Source: an uncultured Clostridia bacterium
GTDB taxonomy: Bacteria > Bacillota > Clostridia > Lachnospirales > Anaerotignaceae
DNA length: 64,000 nt
Reading direction: 5' to 3'
Assembly (NCBI GenBank): GCA_944383885.1
Contig: CALWRF010000001.1
Location: forward strand, 1-64,000
In this document: in pieces, positions 44,075 to 46,372 of the stretch
How the letters are laid out: every line of letters starts with the position of its first letter
Position numbering within the stretch: position 1 is the stretch's first letter
The notes under the pieces: generated by a model
Seen by the model: the letters and a program-made list of their open reading frames with translations, nothing else
Told to the model about the DNA's origin: nothing
Databases searched by the model: none
Position numbers and translations under genes: made by a program

Positions 44075-44217
44075 TAATTAAAGATTTCACATATTTGCTG
44101 CTAATTATCAGATAGACGGATTAAATTAAGTCTTTAAGTCTGAAAAAAGATATATTTTTAACAATTACGGGTTTTGCAGTTTATATTCAGGTGATTTTTA
44201 CTATGCGGAAATAACAT

Positions 44218-44238
44218 AAACAGACAATAAACAGACAT
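44218..44238. repeat. 21-bp direct repeat, left copy beside the integrase
   Basis: Contains two aaacagaca units with an 11-bp period; identical over 21 bp to 45582-45602. It lies 31 bp beyond the integrase stop. It resembles paired arm-type integrase sites. Confidence 0.8.
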
Positions 44239-44269
44239 TTCTGTTAAACAATATATTTTATATATTAAA

Positions 44270-45292
44270 TTAAATCATATTTATATTTTTTATAAGCTCG
44301 TCTATTTCTTTATGTGTATATACGTTTTCGGTAATATCGTTTGTAGAATGACCCATAATGCGTTTTATAGAAATTTTATTCATTCCGGCTGTGTCGGCAA
44401 GGCTTGCGAATGTATGGCGTCCGTCGTGGGGCAAATGCTCCATGTTCAGTTTTTTCATAAGGTTTATATAAATTCTGCGGTATGATGAATAGTTAACCTT
44501 ACAGCCGTTTTTTTCTATGATATAAACATTGTTTAAATCGCAGCGTCTTTTTATAAACGGAAGTATTTTTGAGTTTATAGGAACAGTACGGTTTTTGCCG
44601 GCTTTTGTCTTTGAACCGGCTGTTATATACAATTCTTCTAAGTTAACAGAACTTTTTTTGATGTTTAAAAGCTCCGAAGGACGTAATCCGCTGTAAATCA
44701 TAATAAGCACAGTATCGGCAAAAGGCTCTGTATTTATTGCATTAAAAAGCCTTTCTATTTCATCAGATGTAAATGCTTTATGAATATTAGAAGCTTCTTT
44801 GGGACCTATTTTAGTAAATTTTGCGTAGTTTTTTGAAATAATGTCAAGCTCTATGGCAATATCAAAAAGCTGGTTAAGAAGTGTCTGAACATGGTTTTTT
44901 GTCTGCCATTTTCTATCTATGCTGTCAATTATTTTTTGGAGATGGAATGTTTTTAAATCTTTTATTTTAGTGTTGTGTATAGGCGACAGATATTTATATG
45001 CCGCCTGGTAAATATATACTCCGCTGTTTGAAAGCGTGCTCAGTTTACGCCTTTTAAACTCACAATATAAATCTGATATTGTATAGTTTATTAAATCAAA
45101 GTCGTAAGGAGACTTGTTGTATTCCATAAGAGCCTGAAGCGCTTCCTGAGATGTTTTGTAATAGCCCAGATATTTATACTCCGGTCTTCCGTTTTCTGCT
45201 TTATATCCTGTTTGTATCCTTGCTGTAAAGGGTCTACGGCGTGAGCCTGAAAGCTTATATACACTTCCATAACCTTTTGGCAATCGTTTCAT
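44270..45292 (-). CDS. Tyrosine recombinase (phage/ICE-type integrase)
   Basis: A 340-residue site-specific recombinase. Residues 1-60 look like an arm-binding domain (GYGSVYKLSG, RPFTARIQTGY, YLGYYKTSQEALQAL), 65-165 a core-binding domain, and 175-335 the catalytic domain. Catalytic residues visible: Arg204 (YSGLRPSELL), Lys228 region (AGSKTKAGKNR), His289/Arg292 (LPHDGRHTF), His315 (IMGHS) and Tyr325 (ENVYTH). Length and arm domain fit integrases of conjugative elements. However, no excisionase, replication or transfer gene is nearby; the only neighbours are 21-bp direct repeats and the flagellar promoter. It appears intact and could act on the inverted repeats at 45648 and 45927. Confidence 0.94.
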   Translation of the reverse strand: MKRLPKGYGSVYKLSGSRRRPFTARIQTGYKAENGRPEYKYLGYYKTSQEALQALMEYNKSPYDFDLINYTISDLYCEFKRRKLSTLSNSGVYIYQAAYKYLSPIHNTKIKDLKTFHLQKIIDSIDRKWQTKNHVQTLLNQLFDIAIELDIISKNYAKFTKIGPKEASNIHKAFTSDEIERLFNAINTEPFADTVLIMIYSGLRPSELLNIKKSSVNLEELYITAGSKTKAGKNRTVPINSKILPFIKRRCDLNNVYIIEKNGCKVNYSSYRRIYINLMKKLNMEHLPHDGRHTFASLADTAGMNKISIKRIMGHSTNDITENVYTHKEIDELIKNINMI

Positions 45293-45581
45293 TTAAAGTC
45301 AGTCCTTTCAAAATTAACAGATTTAATGCACGAATATATTTTAAAAATCTTAGTATGTTTTGCTTTATAATCTACTGATAATTTGAACAAAAATGTGAAA
45401 AAAGAGCAATAAAATAAGTGATATAACTATAATATTTCTAAATTATATCAAAAAAGCAGTCTGATTACTAAGTTATTATAAGATAATTTTTACAAAAAGC
45501 TGATTTTTAAGATTGGGCAACTTCTATTAAGAATAAATTTTAAATGAAATACTTTAAAACAAAAGTATTGTTGAGAAAAAC

Positions 45582-45602
45582 AAACAGACAATAAACAGAC
45601 AT
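45582..45602. repeat. 21-bp direct repeat, right copy beside the integrase
   Basis: Identical over 21 bp and in the same orientation as 44218-44238, 290 bp upstream of the integrase start and 45 bp from the left inverted repeat at 45648. Likely a paired arm-type site (11-bp period). Confidence 0.8.
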
Positions 45603-45647
45603 ATCCAATCTAAAATGCTAAAAATATAGTATTGCGGCTGAAATTTA

Positions 45648-45664
45648 TTTTAAATAGTACTTAA
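45648..45664. repeat. Left 17-bp inverted repeat flanking the flagellar promoter
   Basis: ttttaaatagtacttaa is the exact reverse complement of 45927-45943. An asymmetric 7-bp centre (atagtac) could serve as a strand-exchange overlap. Role inferred. Confidence 0.8.
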
Positions 45665-45854
45665 TTTGCATTTTTTATATATAATAGAATTTAATATGAT
45701 TTAACATTTTTAAATGTGGATTATAAATTTTAAACTTGATTTTTTTTACTTTAAAAACACTTTTTTACAAATGTTGCTAAAATTATTTGTATATTGTTTA
45801 CAAAAAAACAAACAATAAATTTAATAAAATCGTAATTATAAAGATAACAAATTG

Positions 45855-45883
45855 TTGAATTTTTGGGGAAAAAAGGATATAAT
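45855..45883 (+). promoter_or_regulatory. Promoter of the flagellar operon
   Basis: TTGAAT (45855-45860), 17 bp, TATAAT (45878-45883), a sigma-A type promoter reading toward flgB. It lies between the two 17-bp inverted repeats, so inversion of that segment would point it at the integrase gene. Confidence 0.82.
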
Positions 45884-45920
45884 GTCTACTTAATAAGTAC
45901 TTCTATTAACAGTATAAATA

Positions 45921-45947
45921 AAGTTTTTAAGTACTATTTAAAAACTT
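45921..45947. repeat. Right inverted repeat within a 27-bp palindromic recombinase-like site
   Basis: Perfect 10-bp arms aagtttttaa and ttaaaaactt surround the 7-bp centre gtactat. Positions 45927-45943 are the inverted copy of 45648-45664. The arm-overlap-arm layout is that of tyrosine recombinase core sites. In RNA it would form a hairpin in the flgB leader. Confidence 0.8.
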
Positions 45948-45991
45948 TTAAGTTTAAACGGTTTTACCGATGTTTAGGAGGGAATTATGTA

Positions 45992-46372
45992 TTGAATTAC
46001 TTAGATAACAACATGTTTGACTTGTCAAAAAAAGTAATGGATTTTCTTTGGCAGAAGCAAACAATAACATCAAACAATATAGCCAATGCAGAAACTCCCG
46101 GATATAAGGCAAAATACATAACTTTTGAGGATGAGCTGCGAAGAAGGCTTGATTCACAGTACGGCAGAACTGCCGGTGAAATTAAAAGAAGCATAGCTTC
46201 TGCAAAGCCTGAAATCCATGAAACAGAAAACGAGTCATCAAGAATGGACGGGAATAATGTTAATGTTGATGTTGAAAGCATGGAGCTTGCAAAAACCGCG
46301 CTTCAATATCAATTTATGGTTAAAGCGTTTAATGATGACATTACAAGGCTGAGCACTGTAATTAGAGGCTGA
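45992..46372 (+). CDS. flgB: Flagellar basal-body rod protein FlgB
   Basis: A 126-residue proximal rod subunit exported by the flagellar secretion system. Family pattern: FLWQKQTITSNNIANAETPGYKAK near the N-terminus and LAKTALQYQFMVKAFN...LSTVIRG at the C-terminus. The start is TTG at 45992, with AGGAGGG 9 bp upstream. The frame is open to 45863, but the promoter -10 box lies inside that part, so upstream starts are excluded. An ATG-TAT-TGA mini-frame sits between the ribosome binding site and overlaps the TTG. First gene of the flagellar operon; flgC follows after 14 bp. Confidence 0.94.
   Translation: MNYLDNNMFDLSKKVMDFLWQKQTITSNNIANAETPGYKAKYITFEDELRRRLDSQYGRTAGEIKRSIASAKPEIHETENESSRMDGNNVNVDVESMELAKTALQYQFMVKAFNDDITRLSTVIRG

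Follow-up and report, generated by a model that had tools for sequence, protein, structure and literature searches.

A candidate invertible flgB promoter in two related Clostridia, probably served by a domesticated phage-type integrase

The flg switch of Clostridioides difficile (Cdi4, served by RecV) resembles the locus described here in that an inverted-repeat segment lies directly upstream of flgB, that a tyrosine recombinase is involved and that the host belongs to the Clostridia (PMC5386303). The C. difficile element has a length of 154 bp and 21-bp imperfect repeats, follows the promoter, lies in the 5' UTR with the Cd1 riboswitch on one side and flgB on the other, and acts after initiation through Rho (PMC5386303, PMC7446863). 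A sequence-only reading of our locus had already stated that the C. difficile element lies after the promoter rather than containing it, which agrees with the published description (PMC5386303). At the locus analysed here the promoter is located between the repeats, and the arrangement of C. difficile, with the switch between promoter and flgB in the 5' UTR, was not found. In C. difficile, RecV also serves cwpV.

The fimS element of E. coli has 9-bp repeats, and its recombinases lack an arm-binding domain. The invertible segment of fimS comprises 314 bp (PMC9993118). Among tyrosine recombinases, those that carry arm-binding domains are associated with mobile elements, and their usual reaction is integration or excision and not inversion (Smyshlyaev 2021, PMC8138268).

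The window is a stretch of 64,000 nucleotides from an uncultured Clostridia bacterium (contig CALWRF010000001.1, positions 1 to 64,000), and positions without a contig name refer to it. It was compared to a sister species of the same genus, the uncultured Clostridia bacterium CALWEX01 (G003).

Repeats, putative core sites and promoter upstream of flgB

45648-45664, minus strand: left inverted repeat with the putative left core recombination site (15-bp core 45650-45664, plus strand TTAA-ATAGTAC-TTAA)
45665-45926, no strand: putative invertible segment, 262 bp between both cores, here in the ON orientation
45855-45883, plus strand: TTGAAT-17-TATAAT, the sigma-A-type promoter for the flgB operon, located within the segment; TTGAAT-17-TATACT in the sister species
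45920-45948, no strand: nearly perfect palindrome that encloses the right core, with perfect arms of 11 bp and an asymmetric centre of 7 bp; weaker in the sister species
45927-45943, plus strand: right inverted repeat with the putative right core recombination site (core 45927-45941, TTAA-GTACTAT-TTAA)
45992-46372, plus strand: flgB, first gene of the flagellar operon (flgB, flgC, fliE, fliF and further genes), TTG start

The perfect 17-bp inverted repeat reported by the sequence-only reading, with 262 bp between its copies, was found again at the same positions and with the same spacing. The repeat reads TTAA-GTACTAT-TTAAAA, and its 7-bp centre is the same in both copies, in opposite orientation. 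Inversion by a tyrosine recombinase requires such an identical centre in inverted orientation. The palindrome that had been described around the right site was also present and has a 7-bp centre, but its perfect arms comprise 11 bp and not 10 bp (14 bp with one mismatch).

The 698-bp intergenic region consists of 80% A+T, and inverted repeats of 12-13 bp were frequent in its shuffled versions, as expected if the repeat arose by chance or forms an RNA structure in such an AT-rich sequence. A perfect inverted repeat of at least 17 bp occurred in 2 of 2000 dinucleotide-preserving shuffles of this region, in line with the earlier estimate of well below one percent. Since the repeat is also kept in a second species and its anatomy matches that of att sites (see below), an origin by chance or as RNA structure is barely credible. 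The exact 17-mer has two copies in the 2.4-Mb genome, both at the flg locus, and matches with three mismatches were at background level in the genome search. One copy with a single mismatch on contig C40 was taken as chance, because it sits at the end of a coding gene.

TTGAAT-17-TATAAT was the best plus-strand promoter-like site in front of flgB, so that the earlier description of a good sigma-A promoter enclosed by the repeats was correct. As in invertons, the inverted repeats bracket a promoter adjoining the gene that it would control. No promoter-like site facing the recombinase gene was found between the start of this gene and the left repeat, and the inverted promoter could therefore be its main promoter. 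The segment has the same orientation (ON) in both genomes with the locus, and no inverted copy was seen, which for n=2 is expected half the time. After inversion, the left junction would read TTTTAAATAGTACTTAA|AAACTTTATTTATACTG and the right junction TATAAAAAATGCAAA|TTAAGTACTATTTAAAA.

Two further features lie within the segment:

45786-45804, no strand: palindrome TTTGTA-N7-TACAAA, candidate site for an accessory protein
45779-45835, no strand: 57-bp run, 100% identical in the sister species, the longest conserved run of the intergenic region

The palindrome, which was noticed after the fact, has its centre at 45795, with the segment midpoint at 45795.5. It lies within 0.5 bp of the midpoint in both genomes, at the same position in the sister species, and it is the single exact match to TTTGTA-N7-TACAAA in each of the two 2.4-Mb genomes (G000, G003). 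A site at the midpoint stays in place on inversion and would thus suit an accessory protein or the recombinase itself. With its arm-N7-arm layout, the palindrome is similar to the core site of a recombinase. The core motif also has degenerate copies near both repeats, at 45519-45556 (ACTTCTATTAA...) and at 45886-45914 (AAATACTTTAAA); they are poorly conserved in the sister species and are possible extra weak recombinase sites.

The AT-rich near-palindromes surrounding the promoter, the palindrome at the midpoint and the degenerate motifs nearby would also fit repeats that function as operators, with a regulator binding both copies, looping the DNA and controlling flgB. We regard this as very improbable: operators do not account for an exact 17-mer that occurs nowhere else in the genome, for a centre that is asymmetric and inverted between the copies, or for the match of the sequence to the att cores of relatives of the adjacent recombinase.

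The recombinase and conservation of the locus

44270-45292, minus strand: tyrosine recombinase of 340 aa with a Phage_integrase domain (PF00589) and intact catalytic residues, related to phage-element integrases

The intact tyrosine recombinase gene that had been noted 355 bp to the left proved to be full length. The residues R204, K, H289, R292, H315 and Y325 were aligned in all homologues, in agreement with the RKHRH...Y pattern. The dN/dS value versus the sister species was 0.067 (NG86), similar to that of the flagellar neighbours. Judged from these alignments, the recombinase, catalytic residues included, is under strong purifying selection.

Among the sequences compared, the best matches of the recombinase were phage-type integrases. 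Its nearest relatives, with about 60% identity, are the integrases that phage-like elements of these two genomes encode. An arm-binding domain, more typical of integrative elements, had been raised as a caveat against a switch. Such a domain fits the arm sites described below and the phage-integrase relatives, but a Pfam match to the N-terminal domain (Arm-DNA-bind_4) was obtained only below the cut-off and in a relative, and the structure model of the recombinase (mean pLDDT 51) was too poor to show an arm domain. The flg recombinase is an integrase of the phage type and probably an arm-binding one.

The sister species has the same arrangement, with 89% identity for the recombinase, 86% for flgB and 79% for the intergenic DNA. 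The longest identical intergenic runs have lengths of 57 bp (45779-45835), 31 bp (at the left repeat), another 31 bp (directly upstream of the recombinase) and 19 bp (at the right repeat). The left repeat is conserved at 17 of 17 positions and the right one at 16 of 17, both cores are identical, and the core-to-core spacing is 277 bp in both species despite one alignment gap on each side. An alignment of the locus from related genomes, which had been proposed as a check, thus showed repeats and spacing kept along with the recombinase.

In other relatives the MCP gene and flgB face apart and are separated by 697-920 bp, and the recombinase is missing there. This recombinase-free intergenic DNA contained neither a core match nor a perfect inverted repeat of more than 12 bp. 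Together with the joint conservation in the sister species, this argues for a joint arrival of the recombinase and its sites in a single lineage, which has kept them. No close copy at flgB was found in the other 56 family genomes searched. In the 58 family genomes, one genome-contig scan and one viral-contig scan, the sister species gave the only further flgB-linked copy, and the arrangement was thus found in two species only.

Att cores and arm sites of related phage-like elements

The closest relatives of the recombinase belong to three integrated phage-like elements, which have direct-repeat att cores of the type TTAA-N7-TTAA(AA):

E1: integrase at C38:17916-18920; attR in C38 and attL on contig C25, both sharing TTAATCAATACTTAAAA; homologous empty site in C8 of the sister species
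E2: contig C87 of the sister species (L164:963-8888), about 8 kb; element ends share GTTAACATTTACTTAA
E3: C38 69220-79509, with its integrase at 74565; both ends have TTTAAATATTTCTTAAA in common

These relatives integrate mobile elements at direct-repeat cores. The flg repeat has the same TTAA arms and the same length of the 7-bp centre as the cores of E1-E3, with a centre sequence of its own, and the centres also differ among the three elements. The cores at the ends of E3 are the only TTAA-N7-TTAA sites in 19.9 kb, and an unbiased genome search with the flg 17-mer retrieved one E3 end as the best match after the one chance match at a coding end. For the relatives from G007, G020 and Oceanobacillus, the stretches examined revealed no such att core.

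Some observations on these contigs concern mobile elements in their own right. The E2 integrase contains an in-frame stop codon and is split. Another att end of the same type, TTGA-TTTTTTC-TTAAA with an arm site 84 bp away, is located at L124:1496-1610 (G000 contig C26); it adjoins a radical SAM gene and a pyruvate phosphate dikinase-like gene, and no integrase was seen beside it. On contig C38 of the genome that contains the window, small hydrophobic ORFs (MSTYEEFMILLTFVSVVISILNLTHKK and MSTYESLSLMIAFASLVVLILRTKK; L062:2495-2740 and L063:2336-2599) lie within 25-31 bp inverted repeats upstream of two prophage integrases. Parallel switches beside these integrases were rejected, because the repeats bracket the small ORFs and their centres differ. 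The ORFs resemble toxins of type I toxin-antitoxin systems.

Around the flg recombinase the following sites were found:

45587-45601, plus strand: arm-type site GACAATAAACAGACA at a distance of 48 bp to the left core, within a wider repeat (45577-45605)
44223-44237, plus strand: second arm-type site GACAATAAACAGACA, within a wider repeat (44213-44241) and immediately beyond the 3' end of the recombinase gene; perfectly conserved in the sister species
44123-44137, no strand: possible decayed second att core, AAATTAAGTCTTTAA, exactly 85 bp from the arm at 44223; weak

The flg locus contains arm-type sites in the form of 11-bp tandem repeats. The motif GACAATAANNNGACA has exactly four copies in the genome. 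Two of them flank the flg recombinase, one on either side, and the others lie at two att sites of the elements; the count is partly circular, as the arm pattern was built from those four sites. The attL on C25 and the far end of E2 (G003 C87:8811) matched the arm motif independently, with one mismatch. The att sites of E1 and E2, the two elements checked, have the geometry arm-47/48 bp-core-85 bp-arm. At the left flg core, the arm is located at exactly 48 bp in both species, though the 48 bp between them have diverged. No arm site was present at 48 or 85 bp from the right flg core. The orientation of the overlap relative to the 48-bp arm in E1 and E2 is opposite to that at the left flg core. 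Since the att anatomy of a phage-type integrase is present at the locus, the caveat on arm binding turned into support.

The order arm(+)-integrase-arm(+)-48 bp-core is also the exact layout of the end of an integrated element. The locus could thus be a degenerate mini-prophage, in which recombinase, arms and left core would be the remnant of an element and the right core a leftover or secondary site, with no current inversion and with the recombinase kept for another role, e.g., repressing the promoter by binding. The possible decayed core 85 bp from the other arm and the adjacency of MCP and flgB in relatives without the recombinase are consistent with such a remnant. However, a prophage would give direct and not inverted copies of the core. 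Both inverted cores are conserved in the sister species at fixed spacing, while the supposed outer core is not: the TTAA half-site at 44123 does not have the form TTAA-N7-TTAA and is not conserved in the sister species. Moreover, the recombinase with its catalytic residues is under strong purifying selection while the other element genes are gone. We consider a mini-prophage unlikely.

Proposed switch and comparison with known systems

We favour, with good confidence, the view that the locus is a phase-variable flagellar promoter and that the dedicated invertase of this flgB promoter is a domesticated integrase of the phage type, probably an arm-binding one. Two related gut-type Clostridia would then probably turn motility on and off by means of an enzyme that was taken over from a phage-like element. 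The promoter switch proposed by the sequence-only reading was strengthened by the conservation of the sites with the recombinase, by the match to att cores and by the arm site at the same 48-bp distance. The occurrence in two species only, the right core without an arm site, the usual role of arm-bearing integrases in integration or excision, the opposite orientation of the overlap in E1 and E2 and the single orientation of the segment speak against a switch.

From the sequence we infer that these sites are substrates of the recombinase, that the segment inverts in cells and that its inversion affects flagella and the expression of the recombinase. The integrase (44270-45292) would bind the two identical inverted cores (TTAA-7 bp-TTAA, overlap GTACTAT) and invert the 262 bp between them. 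In the present orientation, the sigma-A promoter would read into flgB (flagella ON); after inversion it would point away from flgB and toward the recombinase gene (flagella OFF), possibly with increased expression of the recombinase. Such a recombinase-on feedback by the inverted promoter is plausible. The enzyme and the left site would descend from an integrated phage-like element, with the left core keeping the arm-48 bp-core half of the att site and the right site being a bare core. The arm site is located outside the segment, so inversion would regenerate the same arrangement and flipping need not depend on a directionality factor.

More tentatively, the locus may represent a fully domesticated, self-regulated invertase, in which the ON orientation drives flgB, the OFF orientation drives the recombinase, and the midpoint palindrome organises the synapse equally both ways. 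If so, cells losing motility would make the enzyme that can restore it, and a self-regulated invertase with a midpoint palindrome would be a new architecture among inversion switches.

Several known systems share parts of this design. In E. coli, the fimS segment, which is similar in length to the flg segment, likewise carries a promoter and is inverted by the tyrosine recombinases FimB and FimE, whose genes are close by, but it controls a fimbrial operon and these genes lie out of the path of the inverted promoter. The Hin system of Salmonella also uses an invertible promoter for flagellar genes and a recombinase related to phage enzymes (PMC8987985), yet Hin is a serine recombinase encoded inside the segment, depends on a Fis enhancer and switches the flagellin type, not the whole operon. 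The arm-binding integrases of phages and ICEs (complex tyrosine recombinases) share the sequence family, the 7-bp overlap core and the arm sites; unlike there, no element is left here and the cores are inverted and not direct, which implies inversion instead of integration and excision. Gut invertons (Jiang 2019; PhaseFinder) likewise have a promoter between inverted repeats near a recombinase gene, but they are defined by reads in both orientations, while the flg locus was seen in a single orientation in two assembled genomes. A survey of gut communities makes no mention of a flagellar inverton (PMC11892184), and the literature found, of which coverage was partial, describes no case in which such an integrase became a flagellar switch.

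In contrast to C. difficile, the promoter is located within the segment here, the recombinase gene is adjacent, and core and arm sites are of the phage att type. Comparing repeats with the att cores of the mobile relatives of a recombinase offers a way to assign an inverton to its recombinase. The locus would also provide a concrete route by which the integrase of a mobile element could become a switch of host genes, and the same genomes still carry att sites of the ancestral type to which it can be compared. By analogy, the flg locus would correspond to the flg switch of C. difficile but be built differently, as an independently evolved flagellar ON/OFF switch in Clostridia, apparently formed by the capture of a phage integrase and half of its attachment site.
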